This document shows positions 5,302 to 37,831 of a DNA stretch of 64,000 nt, one piece after another. The stretch is from Falsiruegeria litorea R37 (GTDB taxonomy: Bacteria; Pseudomonadota; Alphaproteobacteria; Rhodobacterales; Rhodobacteraceae). The first letter of the stretch is position 1; each line of letters opens with the position of its first letter. The notes beneath the pieces are model-generated. The model made no database searches. It had not been told where the DNA came from and saw only the letters and a program-made list of their open reading frames with translations. A program made the position numbers and the translations under genes. The DNA is taken from contig NZ_FWFO01000004.1 in assembly GCF_900172225.1 (NCBI RefSeq), positions 62,001-126,000 on the forward strand. Reading direction: 5' to 3'.

Positions 5302-8300
5302 ATGGCCCGCGAGATCCCCCAAGTTGCCAGCGGCTTGTTCAGCTATTTCACCCGCCACAGGACCGTAGCCAACTTGCTGTTGTTGGTGATGCTGGTTCTT
5401 GGTGCTGCAGCCATGCCCAATATGCGGGCGCAGTTTTTTCCTGACGTGATCGTCGAAAACGTCGATGTCCGCGTCGTGTGGGAGGGCGCAGGCCCCGAGG
5501 ATGTGGACAGCGCGATTGTTCAGGTTCTGGAACCTACTCTGCTGGCCGTAGATGGCGTCGAAAGCTCGACCTCAACCTCTAGTGAGGGGCGCGCCTACAT
5601 GCGGCTGGAGTTCGAACCCGGTTCGGACATGGCGCGCGCGCAGGATGACGTACAATCTGCGATTGACGCGATAACGACCCTGCCCGAAGACGCAGAAGAC
5701 CCCAGCGTGCGCCGGGGGGCCTGGCGTGACCGGGTGACAGATGTGGTAATCACCGGGCCGATTGATCCGGCACAACTCGGCCTGTTCACCGACGAATTGG
5801 TCGCCCGACTGTTCGAAGTCGGCGTGACCCGCACCACAATCCGGGGCGTGGCGGCACCGCGAACAATCGTTGAAGTGCCGTCGGCTCAGCTGATTTCGAA
5901 CGATGTCAGTATGACTGACATCTCTCAGGCTGTGGCGGCCGAAGTCGACGCTGACCCGGCAGGTGATGTGGCGGGTGCAAACGCTCGGGTACGCACGGGG
6001 GTGGCCAAACGCTCGCCCGAGGATATCGAAGGGATTGTTTTGCGTTCGAATCCAGATGGATCGAAGCTGACCATTGGGGATGTAGCGACAATCCGGGTCG
6101 AAGGCGTAAATCGCCTGCGCAGCTACTACGTCGGTGAAAACCCGGCCATGTCGGTGCGCATTGACCGATCTGATCAAGGCGACGCGATCCGCATCCAGGG
6201 CGTGGTCGAAGACGTTGTTGCAGAGATGCAATTGAGCTTGCCCAAAGACGTCACGGTCGAACTGATCCGCACGCGGGCCGAGGCAATCTCGGGACGTTTA
6301 AATATCTTGGTCGATAATGGCCTGATGGGTTTGGGCCTTGTGGTCTTGTTGCTGTTTCTCTTCCTCAATGCCCGCATCGCGTTCTGGGTGGCTGCGGGCA
6401 TTCCAGCCGCCATGTTTGCCGCCATTGCGCTGATGTATGTGGGTGGCTTGACCATCAACATGGTCTCGCTCTTTGGCTTGATCATTACATTGGGCATTGT
6501 TGTCGACGACGCCATCGTTGTTGGGGAACACGCCGATTTCCGCGCTCGGCGATTGGGCGAGCATCCCGTGGTTGCCGCAGAGCGCGCAGCAGGACGCATG
6601 GCGATGCCGGTCTTTGCTGCGACATTGACGACGATCATTGCCTTTTTTGGCCTGATCGCTGTCGGGGGCCGTTTCGGCGAGTTGATCCGGGATATCCCAT
6701 TCACTGTGATCGCGGTTTTGGCCGCCTCGCTAGTGGAATGCTTTCTGATCCTGCCGAACCACATGAGCCATGCGATTGCACATTCGGCCAAAGAACATTG
6801 GTACGATTTCCCCAACCGGGTCGTGAATCGCGGTTTCCGCTGGATGCGGGATCATCTGTTCCGCCCCTTCATGGGATGGGTTGTTTGGGGCCGCTATGTG
6901 GTTCTGGCCGGAGCGCTGGTCTTTCTTGCCAGCCAAGCCGCAATGTTCATTCAGGGCGACGTGAAGTGGCGGTTTTTCAACGCTCCTGAACGGGGTTCTG
7001 TCACTGGCAACTTTGCCATGGTCGAAGGCGCCACCCGGGCCGACACGCTGGCGATGATGCGCGAGATGCAGCGCGCGACCGAAGAGTTGGGGCAGGAATA
7101 CGAAGAGCGCTATGGCCGCAATCCACTCGACTATGTTTTGGGCGAAATCGGAGGCAACGCCGGGCGCGGCCTGTCGGGCGTCGACACCAAAGACAAAGAT
7201 CTGCTGGGTGGCATTTCGATCGAACTCATCGACGCTGACTTGCGTCCTTATTCCAGCTTTGCCTTCGTCGGCGAACTGCAAGACAGGGTGGTTCGACATC
7301 CGCTGGTCGAAGCAATCAGTTTCCGCAGTTGGCGCTCGGGTCCAGGTGGGGACGCGCTGGACGTGCAGTTTTATGGCGCCGAGGTCACAACGCTGAAACA
7401 GGCGTCCGAAGATCTGCAAACCGCGCTGTTGCGGTACCCTGAGGTGTCCGCCGTCGAAGACAACCTGGCCTATGACAAGGAAGAGGTTGTCTTGGATCTG
7501 ACCGCGCAGGGACAGGCCTTGGGCTTTACCATCGAAACACTGGGGCGCGCGCTGCGCTCGCGGCTCAACGGGATTGAGGCGGCAACCTATCCCGATGGAC
7601 CCCGCAGCGCCGAAATTCGGGTCGAACTGCCCGAGGGCGAACTGACCGCTGATTTTCTGGAACGCACCCTGATGCGTACGCCTCAGGGCGTTTATGTACC
7701 GCTGGCGGATATCGTCAGCGTCGATCAACGAACTGGCTTCTCAACTGTGCGGCGCGAAAATGGTGTGCGCGTGATTTCCGTCACTGGCGACATTTCCGAG
7801 GATGACCCCACCCGCGCCGAAGAGATTTCGCGCGCCCTGGCCGAGGAGATCCTGCCCAAGATTGCCAGCGAGCGTCAGGTCGAATGGCGCATGTCGGGCC
7901 TGAGCGAGCAAGAGGACGAGTTCCTAAATGACGCGCGCACCGGGTTGATCCTGTGTTTGACGGGTATCTATCTGGTTCTGGCTTGGGTCTTTGCCAGTTG
8001 GACCCGGCCGATGGTGGTTATGGCAATCATCCCGTTCGGGCTGGTGGGGACGATCTGGGGTCACTACATCTGGGAGGTGCCGCTGAGCATGTTCACGGTT
8101 GTGGGCCTGCTGGGGATGACCGGGATCATCATCAATGACTCGATCGTCCTGGTCACGACTATCGATGAATACGCAAAAGAGCGCGGGTTGATCCCATCAA
8201 TCATCGACGGCGCAGCGGATCGATTGCGCCCGGTGATGCTGACGACGCTGACCACGGTCCTGGGTCTGGCACCACTGTTGTATGAGCAATCGCAACAGGC

Positions 8301-13400: not shown

Positions 13401-14446
13401 TGGACGGGGCGCAGACGCTGGCGATGCGATACCCTTGGGACACCCCGCCCGCACCGGGTGAGGCCATCGAAGTGGCCGAGGGCGTGCTGTGGATGCGCCT
13501 GCCGCTGCCGATGAAACTGGACCACGTCAACGTCTACGCTCTGGACGAAGGTGACAGCTGGACCGTGATCGACACTGGTTTTGCATCCAAGAAATCGCGC
13601 GCCATCTGGGAGCAGTTGATGGCGGGACCGTTGGGTGGCAAGCCTGTGTCCCGCGTGGTGGTGACCCACCATCACCCCGATCACATGGGGCTGGCGGGCT
13701 GGTTTCAATCCGAGCATGGGGCCGAACTGGTCACAACGCGCACGGCTTGGCTGTTCTCGCGCATGCTGACGCTGGATGTTCAGGAAAACTGGCCGGAAGA
13801 GACGCTGAACTATTACCGTTCGGCGGGTATGAATGCGGACATTCTGGCCAAGCGGATGGCGGATCGCCCGTTCAATTTCTCGGATATGGTGTACCCGATG
13901 CCATTGGGCTTTCGGCGGATCAAGCAGGGTGACGTGTTCCGCATGGGCGGGCGCGATTGGGATGTGCACATGGGCAATGGCCACGCGCCTGAACATGCCA
14001 CGTTCTGGAGCCGTGACGACAATCTGGTGATCACCGGCGATCAGATTCTGTCTTCGATCAGCCCCAACATTGGCGTCTATGCCACTGAACCGCTGGCTGA
14101 TCCGCTGGCGGAGTGGCTGGAGGCGTGCGAGCGTTTGGCACCACTGGCGCGCGAAGATCATCTGGCGCTGGGCGGTCACAAACTCCCATTCACTGGTCTG
14201 CCGATCCGGATGCGTCAGTTGATCGACAATCATCATGGCGCTCTCAAACGGCTGCTGAACCATCTGGACACCCCCAAACCGGCATCCGAATGCTTTGCCC
14301 CTTTGTTCAAACGCACCATTGGTGAGGGTGAATATGGGCTGGCCCTGGTCGAAGCCGTTGCGCATGTGAACCATCTCTACCATATCGGAGAGGTGATCCG
14401 GACCCGTCGTGAGGACGGGGCCTGGCTGTATCAGCGCAAAGACTAA
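13400..14446 (+). CDS. Metallo-beta-lactamase-fold hydrolase
   Basis: A 348-residue MBL-fold enzyme with the metal motif THHHPDHMG (H90, H92, D94, H95). A further probable ligand His is in GNGHAPEH and a conserved Asp in LVITGDQIL. The C-terminal 100 residues are helical (NHLYHIGEVIRTRREDG), as in the lactonase/thioesterase-like members that carry a winged-helix tail. It starts at the last base of the acyl-CoA dehydrogenase stop, so the two are translationally coupled. A hydrolase acting on an acyl-CoA or related ester in the same pathway is a reasonable inference, not shown. Confidence 0.9.
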   Translation: MDGAQTLAMRYPWDTPPAPGEAIEVAEGVLWMRLPLPMKLDHVNVYALDEGDSWTVIDTGFASKKSRAIWEQLMAGPLGGKPVSRVVVTHHHPDHMGLAGWFQSEHGAELVTTRTAWLFSRMLTLDVQENWPEETLNYYRSAGMNADILAKRMADRPFNFSDMVYPMPLGFRRIKQGDVFRMGGRDWDVHMGNGHAPEHATFWSRDDNLVITGDQILSSISPNIGVYATEPLADPLAEWLEACERLAPLAREDHLALGGHKLPFTGLPIRMRQLIDNHHGALKRLLNHLDTPKPASECFAPLFKRTIGEGEYGLALVEAVAHVNHLYHIGEVIRTRREDGAWLYQRKD

Positions 14447-14462
14447 ATTCAGGGACAACAGC

Positions 14463-14924
14463 ATGGACGACAAGATCGAAACGGCGGCCGAAGCGGCAGA
14501 AGCAGCGGCTTTGCCGCGTCATCACGAGGTCCATGCAGACCCTGAACGTCAACCCAAGCTGGGTCCGGTGCCTGCCCAGATGCAAAAACCTGTCGAGGCC
14601 AAAAGCCCGTCGCGCTGGGCCTATGAACGGCTGATCCTTTACATCCGCAGTTTCGAAGAGCAGCTCGATGCCGAGCACGAGGTTGCCATGGGGTTCACTG
14701 GGGGCGACGCCGGAGTGCTGCGGATTGAGGGGATGGGGTATTTCGATCCCGATATCGTGACGTTTTATGGAACGGATTCCAACGGTGTGCGCACACAGCT
14801 GGTGCAGCATGTCAGCCAACTGAACGTGATGCTGCGGGCCTTGCCCAAGCCAAAAGAGGACACGCCTGCTACGCGGATCGGGTTTCGTTTGGCTGCGGAT
14901 CTTGAAACGTCAGACGAGTCGTGA
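14463..14924 (+). CDS. DUF6173 family protein
   Basis: A 153-residue soluble protein. The start is the ATG at 14463, 16 bp after the hydrolase stop. An acidic, Ala-rich N-terminus leads into the conserved core RWAYERLILYIRSFEEQLDA, EVAMGFTGGDAGVLRIEGM and DIVTFYG...LVQHVSQLNVML. I recognise this as the DUF6173 family of Rhodobacterales, whose function is unknown. It is probably the last gene of the dehydrogenase-hydrolase operon. A dispersed repeat lies 36 bp behind its stop. Confidence 0.85.
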   Translation: MDDKIETAAEAAEAAALPRHHEVHADPERQPKLGPVPAQMQKPVEAKSPSRWAYERLILYIRSFEEQLDAEHEVAMGFTGGDAGVLRIEGMGYFDPDIVTFYGTDSNGVRTQLVQHVSQLNVMLRALPKPKEDTPATRIGFRLAADLETSDES

Positions 14925-15215: not shown

Positions 15216-17054
15216 GTGTCACATTATTCCACAGTGACTGAGGCTTATGCGCAGGCCTGGGCCAGACGTCGTGTTTTTGTCCCGCTCTACATGGCGTTGC
15301 GGCTGTTGGCCTATGCGCTGATTGCGCCCGGCATGGCTGCGACTATAAACTTGGCTGTGTCCCTGTCCGATCAACCGGCGCTGACGGATCAGGATATCGC
15401 CTATTTCATCCTGACCCCGGTTGGCTTTCTGGCCACGCTTGCGGTTCTGAGCATACTTCTGGCGGTCGAAGTGCTCAGTTTTTCGGTCATGAGCACCAGC
15501 CTGCGTTATGACGGCACCGACAGGTTGCGGACCTCGCTTGCGGCATTTGGTTTTGTCGTTAGCCATGTCAAGGACTTGCTGATCTTTGGTCTGTTGTTTG
15601 TTCTGCGCGTGCTGTTGCTGGTTGCGCCCTTTGCGTTGGTGGCCGGTGTCATCATGCTGTGGGTTACCGGGGATTATGACATCAACTACTACCTGACCTA
15701 TACGCCGCCCTCGTTCAGGGTGGCGGTTGGGGTTGTTGCGGTGATCCTGCTGGCGTTGGCCATCGTCCTGTTGCTGCGCCTGTCCAGTTGGGCCTTGGCC
15801 TTGCATCTTGTCCTGTTCGAGGATGTACGCCCCCGCGATGCCTTTGCCGCCAGCACGTCCCGGATGCAAGGCAAGCAGACAGGCTTGAAGATCGAACTGG
15901 TGATCTGGGTGGTCGTGCGGCTGGCAATTTCCTTTGGCGTCGCTGTTGTGGCGGGACTGTGCATCAACCTGATCCCGGTCACCGAGGGGCATTTGAAATC
16001 CGCTCTCACGTTTTCCATGGCCATTGTGTTGCTGTGGGGGCTGGCGGGACTGATCCTGTCGGCCGTGTCTCTTGGAGCGTTGGCCGTGCTTCTGGACGGG
16101 TTCTTTGAGGGCAAGCGCTTGCAGGCGCCGACCACCTCGGGCGGCGGCAACCTGAGTGCCCGGCTTGCCCTGACTGTTGCGGTTGGCGCTGTGGCGCTGG
16201 TCGGTGGTGTCTGGATGGGCAATGGTTTGCTCGAAGCGGTCGAGGCTGATGATGAGGTCGAGATCATTGCGCACCGCGGCGCGGCTGGATCCCGACCCGA
16301 GAACACCATGGCCTCGGTCGTCAAGGCCATCGGGGACAAGGCCGATTGGGTCGAGATCGACGTGCAAGAGACAGCCGACGGAGAGGTCGTGGTCATGCAC
16401 GACAGCGACTTTATGAAACTGGCCGGGGTCAATCTGACGATCTGGGATGCCACGATGGAGGATCTGGCCAAGATCGACATAGGCAGTTGGTTTGACCCGG
16501 CCTATTCGGACGAACGCCCGCCGGCCCTGCGTGAAGTTTTGCAAGCGGCGCGTGGCAAGTCGAAGGTTCTGATTGAGCTCAAATACTATGGCCACGACGT
16601 GGATCTGGAAAATCGCGTTGTCGCGATCGTCGAAGAGTTGGGGATGCAGGACCAGATTGCCACCATGTCTTTGAAATACCCTGCGGTGCAAAAGATGCGC
16701 ACACTGCGGCCCGAGTGGCGTGCGGGCGTTTTGGCTGCTACTGCAGTAGGCGATTTGACTGCCCTGGATGGCGATTTCCTGGCCGTCAACGCGGGCATGG
16801 CCAATGTGGCTCTGGTCAATTCAACGGAGGCAGCAGGTAAGGATCTGTATGTCTGGACCGTCAACGATCCATTGCAGATGTCCAAGATGATTTCGCTGGG
16901 GGTAGACGGGTTGATCACGGATGAACCCGCCCTTGCGCGCCAGGTGCTGGAGTTTCGCGCCGGTCTGACCCCAACCGAACGCATGCTGTTGTGGATGACT
17001 GAGGAACTGGGGCTTGATCTGTCGGATGGGGATTATCGTGACAACAGCCCGTAA
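15216..17054 (+). CDS. Glycerophosphodiester phosphodiesterase with membrane domain
   Basis: It hydrolyses deacylated phospholipids (glycerophosphodiesters) to glycerol-3-phosphate and an alcohol. I prefer the GTG at 15216 because GAAGGGGAGA ends 5 bp upstream; the ATG at 15168 lacks a comparable site. The 612-residue product has an N-terminal GDPD membrane domain (about 1-335) with six or more hydrophobic helices. The catalytic TIM-barrel follows: IIAHRGAAGSRPENT, VEIDVQETADGEVVVMHD, a FDPAYSDERPPALREVL segment and a C-terminal DGLITDEP. The metal/catalytic His, Glu and Asp residues are present. It overlaps the phospholipase-like gene by 17 bp. Confidence 0.93.
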   Translation: MSHYSTVTEAYAQAWARRRVFVPLYMALRLLAYALIAPGMAATINLAVSLSDQPALTDQDIAYFILTPVGFLATLAVLSILLAVEVLSFSVMSTSLRYDGTDRLRTSLAAFGFVVSHVKDLLIFGLLFVLRVLLLVAPFALVAGVIMLWVTGDYDINYYLTYTPPSFRVAVGVVAVILLALAIVLLLRLSSWALALHLVLFEDVRPRDAFAASTSRMQGKQTGLKIELVIWVVVRLAISFGVAVVAGLCINLIPVTEGHLKSALTFSMAIVLLWGLAGLILSAVSLGALAVLLDGFFEGKRLQAPTTSGGGNLSARLALTVAVGAVALVGGVWMGNGLLEAVEADDEVEIIAHRGAAGSRPENTMASVVKAIGDKADWVEIDVQETADGEVVVMHDSDFMKLAGVNLTIWDATMEDLAKIDIGSWFDPAYSDERPPALREVLQAARGKSKVLIELKYYGHDVDLENRVVAIVEELGMQDQIATMSLKYPAVQKMRTLRPEWRAGVLAATAVGDLTALDGDFLAVNAGMANVALVNSTEAAGKDLYVWTVNDPLQMSKMISLGVDGLITDEPALARQVLEFRAGLTPTERMLLWMTEELGLDLSDGDYRDNSP

Positions 17055-17610
17055 CGCCCTGATCGTCGCCTTGATCGGTTTGCCGCTTCCTGTCGTCTCG
17101 CAAGAGAGCGGTGTCACGCGCGCTTTTGAACTGCCTGCGCACAACGCGCTGATGTCGATTCGCAGGGGCGCAGAGCTGAGCGAATTTGAAACCGACGGCT
17201 GTTCGGGCGGATTGTCCTACAGCTGGCGAGTGGTGGCGCGGAGTTTCCCCGATTTTGCCGAGGCTCATGATCAGATCCCACCTTGGGAAAACTGCTGTGT
17301 CATTCACGACCGGGCTTATCACAATGCAGGTGGGGCAGAGACCGCAGAAGACAGTTATGATGCCCGTCTGACGGCGGACAAGACCTTGGAAAATTGTGTA
17401 AAACGCACCGGCGCGCTGCGGGTCGAGGAGGTGGCTGCGCATTATGACGTGCAGCCCGAGGCGGTCGAGACGGCTTATGAGGCGATTGCCGAGGCGATGT
17501 ATCTCGCCGTGCGGTTCGGAGGTGGGCCGTGTTCGGGCCTGCCGTGGCGATGGGGGTTTGGTTATTCCCAGTGCACTGTTCTGGATGCGATTGGCCCTGC
17601 GCGCGAATGA
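17038..17610 (+). CDS. Secreted phospholipase A2-like protein
   Basis: Start GTG at 17038 (GGGG about 6 bp upstream; ATGs at 17014 and 17026 are alternatives) gives 190 residues. A signal peptide (ALIVALIGLPLPVVSQ) comes first. The core shows D53-GCSGG, then W-ENCCVIHD with C86, C87, H90 and D91. This is the CCxxHD signature of secreted phospholipases A2. It is followed by a downstream ADKTLENC (D114, C120) that matches the second conserved Asp/Cys of bacterial PLA2s. Such enzymes release a fatty acid from the sn-2 position. I infer a periplasmic or secreted lipase; the assignment rests on motifs, not on an alignment. Confidence 0.7.
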   Translation: MTTARNALIVALIGLPLPVVSQESGVTRAFELPAHNALMSIRRGAELSEFETDGCSGGLSYSWRVVARSFPDFAEAHDQIPPWENCCVIHDRAYHNAGGAETAEDSYDARLTADKTLENCVKRTGALRVEEVAAHYDVQPEAVETAYEAIAEAMYLAVRFGGGPCSGLPWRWGFGYSQCTVLDAIGPARE

Positions 17611-17674
17611 CGTGGTGACAGGCGCTTTCAAATCCAGTATCCAACGGAAAATTCTGACGAATAGGAAAAGACCC

Positions 17675-17809
17675 ATGGCGGACCACAAGCACGGCGAAAT
17701 GGACATCACCGATCAAACCGCAATGTACAACGCGTTCATCAAGTTTTGCACTTGGTCCTGCGTTGTCATCTTTGGCATCCTGCTGTTTCTCGCTGTATTC
17801 GCGTCCTGA
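17675..17809 (+). CDS. aa3-type cytochrome c oxidase subunit IV
   Basis: A 44-residue single-span protein: a short soluble head with the family signature HGEMDITDQTAMYNAFIKF, then one transmembrane helix. It belongs to the bacterial aa3 oxidase subunit IV family, a small accessory helix of the alphaproteobacterial oxidase that is dispensable for activity in Paracoccus. The ATG at 17675 follows a purine-rich AGGAAAAG. As is usual, it is not next to the main cox genes. Confidence 0.93.
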   Translation: MADHKHGEMDITDQTAMYNAFIKFCTWSCVVIFGILLFLAVFAS

Positions 17810-17828
17810 TTTGATCGCGGAGTAAAGC

Positions 17829-18458
17829 GTGTTTCGTCTTCTCCTGGTCGGCGCACTTGCGCTTGGGCTGGCTGGCTGCGCCTCGACGCGCGGCCCGCAG
17901 GCAACTGATACGCAAATCGCTGCGGTATCTTACCGCGATGCCGGTCCTGCGACGCTGACGCTTTACACCATGATCAACAACCGCACTGGCAGCGGGGGGC
18001 ATACCTCGCTGATGATCAATGCGCGGGAACGGATCATTTTCGATCCCGCGGGCTCGTTCCGGGCCGACATCGTGCCTGAGCGTAACGATGTTCTTTATGG
18101 CATCACCCCTGCGGTGGAGCAGGCATATCGCGCCTCCCACGCGCGCTCGACCCACCATGTGGTGGTACAAGAGATCGAGGTGACACCGGAGCAGGCCGAG
18201 GTTGCCTATCAACTGGCCAGGCAGATGGGGCCGGTGCCTGGTGCCTTCTGTGCCAGCGCAACCTCGCAACTGCTGCAGCAGGTCCCGGGGTTCGAGGGCA
18301 TCAAGTCGGGGTTTCAGCCTACCAGTCTGTCGGCTCAGTTCGAACAGATGCCGGGCGTGAAAACCGAGCGGTATTACGAGAATGATGATGCGGACCTGCA
18401 AAAAGGCCTGGCAGAAAACAATGCCAGGTTGAACGCGCAGGCTGCTGCAGGCGGCTAA
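17829..18458 (+). CDS. Lipoprotein with possible permuted NlpC/P60 (papain-like) fold
   Basis: A 209-residue lipoprotein with lipobox LAGC (lipidated C17). The mature part has a His in SGGHTSLMINA (H58), an FDPAGSF segment, and a Cys in GAFCASATSQLL (C141). The His-before-Cys order with about 80 residues between them is what circularly permuted NlpC/P60 (YiiX/LRAT-like) hydrolases show. That superfamily includes lipid acyltransferases and amidases. This is inference from spacing and local pattern only. It starts 19 bp after coxIV and sits two genes behind the phospholipase-like gene. Confidence 0.75.
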   Translation: MFRLLLVGALALGLAGCASTRGPQATDTQIAAVSYRDAGPATLTLYTMINNRTGSGGHTSLMINARERIIFDPAGSFRADIVPERNDVLYGITPAVEQAYRASHARSTHHVVVQEIEVTPEQAEVAYQLARQMGPVPGAFCASATSQLLQQVPGFEGIKSGFQPTSLSAQFEQMPGVKTERYYENDDADLQKGLAENNARLNAQAAAGG

Positions 18459-34581: not shown

Positions 34582-34693
34582 GCGGTTGTTGGCCGATATG
34601 TCAGATTGATGACAGTTTCATGCACCTGCAGCGTGACAGACCGATTTTCTTGTGCTCAACTCGTCCGGCATACAATTGAGAAGGAGGATTGCC

Positions 34694-37694: not shown

Positions 37695-37831
37695 TGAGGA
37701 ATCCTCCAATTGAATTTGGCGTTGTAATGCTGTTACCCATTGCGCTCGGGATGCGCAATATTCTTTCGCGATGAAATTTTCATGACAGGTGGAAAATTTT
37801 GTCGCATTCGGGGTAAGTGACTGGGGTTAAA

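Follow-up and report, generated by a model that had tools for sequence, protein, structure and literature searches.

The window analysed here is a 64,000-nucleotide stretch of the 4.69 Mb genome of Falsiruegeria litorea R37 (contig NZ_FWFO01000004.1, positions 62,001 to 126,000). On its forward strand lies a gene for a membrane glycerophosphodiester phosphodiesterase (GDPD; 15216-17054, 612 residues), followed by a gene for a secreted, phospholipase A2 (PLA2)-like protein with a CCxxHD motif (17038-17610, 190 residues, GTG start at 17038). The two reading frames share 17 bases (17038-17054), and the two genes are a real conserved two-gene unit in marine roseobacters. Based on this pairing, the conserved catalytic residues, the homology to group XIV-type PLA2 and the predicted topology, 15216-17610 is read, with slightly better than even confidence, as a translationally coupled two-enzyme unit for periplasmic phospholipid breakdown. 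The first-pass annotation had joined these genes to a nearby lipoprotein gene in one phospholipid-turnover cluster. The four genes it described do lie where it placed them, and the GDPD-PLA2 overlap, the CCxxHD motif and the His-then-Cys pattern of the lipoprotein are all borne out, but the proposed cluster consists of two distinct gene pairs lying next to each other.

Pairing and distribution of the two genes

Orthologues of the long GDPD were taken at E < 1e-100, the next match standing at 5e-23. Among 198 genomes of the same family, 20 contain the long GDPD and 21 (own included) the PLA2-like protein; both are present in 17, and in 17 of 17 they adjoin, giving a Fisher p of 4e-18 that is uncorrected for relatedness. 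For these two genes, co-occurrence is therefore seen outside this strain too. A search of the genome contig set confirmed 263 relatives of the PLA2-like protein, of which the best 80 loci, ranked by PLA2 similarity and mostly from Ruegeria and metagenome-assembled genomes, were kept. At 75 of these 80 loci, the GDPD gene immediately precedes the PLA2-like gene on the same strand. With script-chosen starts, the two frames overlap in 70 of the 75, and the gap is at most 34 bases in 74. At the remaining locus (L126, Ruegeria intermedia, 6150-8001) the GDPD frame breaks off at residue 441, through a frameshift or a sequencing error.

The pair occupies nine or more genomic settings. Nine of the 17 pairs in the family genomes sit at the locus of the cytochrome oxidase subunit IV (cox-IV) gene, as in the window, and eight sit elsewhere; for the 75 paired loci the figures are 66 and nine, the nine falling in eight settings (L161 and L178 share one). 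The relocated pairs L163 and L176 have one weakly similar flanking protein in common. In addition, a pair lies on plasmid pDSHI05 of Dinoroseobacter shibae DFL 12 (genes DSHI_RS21120 and DSHI_RS21115, of which the second is labelled a hypothetical protein), where it adjoins replication, partition and VapC genes. A PLA2-like gene without GDPD stands at the cox-IV locus of one genome (G075, loci L020 and L032), between the DUF6173 gene and COX4. Evolutionary distances of GDPD and PLA2-like protein correlate at 0.91 over 74 pairs, and at 0.39 (p 0.036) over the relocated nine only, while GDPD and lipoprotein distances correlate at 0.94 at the resident loci, as vertical descent predicts. On a GDPD tree of 25 rows, the label "elsewhere" needs two changes. 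Separate assembly of the pair is unsupported by the tree and the distances, the GDPD-lipoprotein distances correlating equally well.

A phylum-wide search found relatives of the PLA2-like protein in 12 of 349 genomes, three of the 12 in the window's own family, and a class-wide search with a wider profile found them in 3 of 240, own included. Short relatives elsewhere in Pseudomonadota retain the blocks DgCs, CC..HD..Y, R..D, C and VR.GG.P...RW.yG. One short frame from another alphaproteobacterial family (L182, E 1.6e-14) has a degraded C-terminal RWGYG block. No description of the GDPD-PLA2 pair was found in the open PMC subset, among the matches listed and with partly loose term matching.

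The PLA2-like protein and its GDPD partner

The nearest named relatives of the window's PLA2-like protein come from Tropicibacter, Falsiruegeria and Ruegeria. Its N-terminus is hydrophobic, with a signal peptide judged by eye, and its motif reads DGCSGG...CCVIHDRAYH. The window protein was aligned with 69 of the 80 kept relatives, near-copies having been removed, and twelve positions are invariant in all 70 sequences: D53, C55, C86, C87, H90, D91, Y94, R110, D114, C120, C165 and C179. The motifs of this protein, and those of the lipoprotein described below, are not due to chance, because their key residues are invariant among the aligned relatives.

Family assignment draws on profiles and structure together. 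Pfam gave the window protein no family at E ≤ 1, DUF1353 included, and NCBIfam gave none either, its single weak match (E 0.038) being unrelated. PF09056 was found in none of 21 PLA2-like relatives; of five short relatives from elsewhere, three reached it with E values between 0.00077 and 0.18, none of them passing the cut-off. Profile-to-profile alignment (hhalign) to eight annotated Streptomyces and Deinococcus PLA2s gave 95.2% when the roseobacter set was used and 96.4% with the wider set, which takes in seven short relatives from outside the family; the lipoprotein family, used as control, gave 4.9%. Against the PDB, the narrow profile returned chance matches only, and the wider profile placed 4aup (E 0.016) and 8k1w (E 0.029) at the top, both PLA2s with motifs in register. 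D114 is in register with the Asp of the PLA2 dyad in the PDB alignments and in the wider-set hhalign alignment. The AlphaFold2 model has a mean predicted local distance difference test (pLDDT) of 87 and a predicted template modelling score (pTM) of 0.80. Structural re-alignment of 999 chains put three microbial PLA2s first at Z 6.9, 6.0 and 5.9, values in the chance range for helical proteins (88-98 residues, 4.8-5.4 Å, 19-22% identity). Taken together, sequence and structure suggest that the CCxxHD protein is likely a group XIV-type PLA2 by ancestry. It would represent an unannotated family, an undescribed relative of secreted PLA2, with PLA2 as its probable class. The PLA2 assignment of the first-pass annotation thus stands on profile homology, motif and fold ranking. 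The structure prediction that it proposed gave the lipoprotein a permuted NlpC/P60-like fold; for the PLA2-like protein, PLA2s ranked first but with weak scores.

The GDPD carries an N-terminal membrane domain (PF10110, GPDPase_memb, residues 24-290, 38.4 bits against a cut-off of 29.6) and a C-terminal catalytic domain (PF03009, residues 353-572, 132.3 bits, E 4e-38). H353, R354, E380, D382 and H395 are invariant in 76 of 76 sequences, and, going by the NCBIfam alignment offset, H353, E380 and H395 occupy the positions of His51, Glu78 and His93 of LpgD. A hydropathy scan reports seven segments in 66 of 75 GDPD orthologues and eight in nine. Membrane proteins follow the positive-inside rule, by which this topology was read. 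With seven segments, Lys and Arg number 4, 3, 6 and 3 in the inside loops and 0, 1 and 1 in the outside loops, and the catalytic domain is placed in the periplasm; the eight-segment reading breaks this pattern. The catalytic domain thus probably faces the periplasm, the compartment predicted for the PLA2-like protein.

Several results weigh against reading the pair as a periplasmic PLA2 and GDPD unit. For the window GDPD itself, the scan reports eight segments, which would put the catalytic domain in the cytoplasm; this count arises because the scan splits the 40-residue stretch 111-150 with a two-residue loop. The same protein scores 39.1 bits with the lysophospholipase D model NF053857, whose cut-off is 450. 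No Pfam PLA2 model matched 17038-17610. In a Pfam scan of the 70 aligned relatives, PF09056 was touched by three (best E 0.039) and PF00068 by three (best E 0.082), and PLA2 families appeared at E 0.005 to 0.08 with unrelated families scoring better. D114 is out of register with the dyad Asp in the roseobacter-set hhalign alignment, one of three. Foldseek returned nothing significant for the PLA2-like model, E being above 0.1 throughout, and a Z of about 6-7 is reachable by chance for helical models, the unrelated transporter TmRibU standing at 5.7. The pairing also has its exceptions: five of the 80 loci lack GDPD and have differing neighbours, as judged from the first residues of frames, and in the 198 genomes GDPD occurs without PLA2 in 3 of 20 and PLA2 without GDPD in 4 of 21.

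The neighbouring cox-IV and lipoprotein genes

Downstream of the pair lies a second one: a COX4_pro_2 gene for subunit IV of an aa3-type cytochrome oxidase (17675-17809, forward strand, E 6e-10), outside the GDPD-PLA2 unit, and the lipoprotein gene (17829-18458, forward strand). The lipoprotein occurs in 163 of the 198 family genomes, namely in 15 of 17 with the GDPD-PLA2 pair and 148 of 181 without it (Fisher p 0.74), and it adjoins cox-IV in all 30 loci read, those of the 30 best-scoring of the 163 genomes. Since the lipoprotein is near-universal regardless of the pair and beside cox-IV at every locus read, the cox-IV and lipoprotein genes look resident and the GDPD-PLA2 pair an incomer. For the same reasons of co-occurrence and synteny, the three-gene cluster of the first-pass annotation is rejected. 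Upstream of GDPD, a DUF6173 protein of unknown function (14409-14924, forward strand, PF19670, 47.3 bits) also lies outside the unit and is a regular neighbour of the resident locus, at most 1.5 kb away at 17 of the 30 lipoprotein loci. Also upstream are genes for a metallo-beta-lactamase-fold protein and an acyl-CoA dehydrogenase, and downstream are azlD, azlC and fdhD.

The lipoprotein has a lipobox, LAGC, at Cys17, together with His58 and Cys141. Four residues, C17, H58, D72 and C141, never vary among the close relatives (35 of 35) or in a wider set (30 of 30). The frame in the wider set was chosen by a pattern requiring a His and an acidic residue, which each of the 29 loci tried satisfied. 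The three best structural matches of the predicted model (pLDDT 88, pTM 0.83) are all permuted NlpC/P60 enzymes, namely TseH, YiiX and one from B. cereus; the Z values of the three are 8.9 (132 residues, 3.9 Å), 7.9 (125 residues, 3.4 Å) and 6.5 (124 residues, 3.9 Å), and the next match stands at 3.1. Foldseek gave nothing for this model at E 0.001, and the profile gave chance matches only against the PDB. Membership in PF05708 by sequence was rejected: no Pfam match occurs in 35 of 35 members, and hhalign to five PF05708 proteins gave 0.2%. At Y127, 14 residues ahead of the Cys, 19 of the 35 members have Tyr, 15 have Leu and one has Phe; another Tyr might serve. The lipoprotein is like permuted NlpC/P60 enzymes in its predicted fold and in its His-Asp-Cys order, and it is in these two respects only that the earlier assignment is supported. 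No LRAT entry, the other fold once suggested, is among the structural matches listed, which excludes nothing, no sequence comparison with LRAT having been made.

Relatives of the lipoprotein also occur on roseobacter plasmids, in 39 records, 31 of them typed as conjugative. On D. shibae pDSHI03 (L184, 5659-6552), one lies near lgt, two L,D-transpeptidases, DsbB and copper genes, neighbours that hint at an envelope role.

Mechanism, alternatives and known systems

In the proposed mechanism, the secreted, divergent His-Asp PLA2 would remove the sn-2 acyl chain of a phospholipid. The free sn-2 hydroxyl could then serve GDPD as the nucleophile on the phosphodiester, and GDPD would cleave the lysolipid. 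Because the PLA2 cut makes the very hydroxyl that GDPDs use, a phospholipid would become cleavable by GDPD. The pair would most likely yield the alcohol of the headgroup together with (cyclic) lysophosphatidic acid, and glycerol 3-phosphate only if the other acyl chain were also removed. The model for the second step is LpgD of Staphylococcus aureus, which cleaves 1-acyl and not 2-acyl lysophosphatidylglycerol, the sn-2 hydroxyl attacking the phosphodiester to give cyclic lysophosphatidic acid with His51, Glu78 and His93 (PMC10404611). Since PLA2 would make a free sn-2 hydroxyl of the LpgD type, the pair's shortest route of its own would run from phospholipid through 1-acyl lysolipid to lysophosphatidic acid and headgroup. 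GDPD matches a stretch of LpgD that does not include its acyl-chain-fitting region. We infer both activities, the substrate, the order of steps and the probable calcium dependence of the PLA2. Tentatively, and with the balance against so specific a claim, the pair could be a self-sufficient phospholipid-to-lysophosphatidate module, made of an undescribed class of secreted PLA2 and a co-translated, periplasm-facing polytopic GDPD. Such a module may contribute to the quality control of envelope phospholipids in roseobacters, in whose 198 family genomes no outer-membrane phospholipase OMPLA (PF02253) was found. OMPLA was tried as a contrast for the unit, but its absence from all 198 made a comparison impossible.

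A possible, though rather doubtful, alternative is the scavenging of phosphorus or glycerol, in which PLA2 and another acyl-removing enzyme strip phospholipids and GDPD frees glycerol 3-phosphate for uptake. The established GDPD function, on deacylated glycerophosphodiesters, fits this (PMC10404611), and so does the predicted single compartment of the two proteins. The unit, however, contains no second deacylating enzyme, and the lipoprotein is unassociated with the pair; the first-pass proposal of full deacylation to glycerol 3-phosphate would need a second acyl-removing step, and none is seen. Regulation also speaks against scavenging. In scans with the Pho-box consensus, no site with three or fewer mismatches was found in the 300 bases before GDPD at 75 loci, although four-mismatch best matches are commoner there (45 of 75) than in random stretches (16 of 75, one draw), an excess that kinship of the sequences alone could produce. 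Control of the pair by the phosphate regulon was rejected, as no good Pho box was found. Over the whole window, matches number five against 4.43 expected, no more than chance; two of the sites, both on the reverse strand, are 34598-34615 (one mismatch, near yddG) and 37771-37788 (two mismatches, near an acetoacetyl-CoA reductase gene). Promoter-like patterns number 2 against 1.4 in shuffles, and terminator-like patterns 8 against 4.2.

The three-gene lipid pathway, with the lipoprotein as a second acyl-removing or acyl-transferring enzyme, is improbable. It is favoured by the genes lying close together at 65 of the 80 loci and by lipid-linked relatives of the fold (PMC3142127 and PMC12994826), but the lipoprotein shows no association with the pair over the 198 genomes, eight of 17 pairs lie elsewhere in the genome, and the lipoprotein stays beside cox-IV without them. 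A shade less probable is an effector with self-protection, whereby an exported PLA2 hits other cells and the membrane GDPD clears lysophospholipids from the producer's own membrane. The coupled genes, their patchy distribution and the plasmid copy beside replication, partition and VapC genes would suit such a role; against it stand the genomes with PLA2 and no GDPD and, weakly, the lack of noticed secretion-system genes among the neighbours, partly judged by the first residues of frames. Least probable of all is an inactive PLA2-like protein with a binding or structural role alongside GDPD. Its fold outside the core is unlike that of known PLA2s and its activity is so far predicted only, but the catalytic and calcium-site residues are the same in all 70 aligned sequences. 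The two-enzyme unit for periplasmic phospholipid breakdown is the reading we prefer.

Under that reading, an unannotated family with short relatives in other Pseudomonadota families gains a probable PLA2 class and a fixed enzyme partner, and its function thereby becomes testable in well-studied marine organisms such as Ruegeria and Dinoroseobacter shibae. Membrane lipid remodelling in roseobacters appears to have been studied largely for phosphate economy. If true, the reading would reveal in these bacteria a periplasmic route for handling lysophospholipids.

Among known systems, YiiX (2if6), the B. cereus enzyme BcPPNE (3kw0) and TseH (6v98) are the three best structural matches of the lipoprotein and have the order of His, acidic residue and Cys in common with it; the lipoprotein differs in that its 35 members lack a Pfam match and the Tyr before the Cys is unconserved. 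Both LpgD and the window GDPD are membrane-anchored GDPDs whose catalytic His, Glu and His share one spacing. LpgD has one transmembrane helix (PMC10404611), whereas the window GDPD has a polytopic PF10110 domain and scores far under the LpgD cut-off. TtaP, a DUF1353 protein related to group XIV, has been established as a PLA2 in other work (PMC11525133). It and the window's PLA2-like protein are both distant group XIV relatives with a His-Asp dyad, but TtaP lacks an overt signal sequence as well as the four Cys, and the window protein is without a DUF1353 match. The group XIV or prokaryotic secreted PLA2s themselves (PF09056; 4aup, 8k1w, 7ygk) share with the window protein the core DGCS...C..HD..Y and a second Asp on the next helix, and both the profile match and the first-ranked structures point to them. 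Unlike them, the window protein has no Pfam match, has CC ahead of HD where they have a single Cys, is about 190 residues long, ends in an extra conserved C-terminal block, PC..L.WRWG.G...C, and is encoded next to a GDPD.

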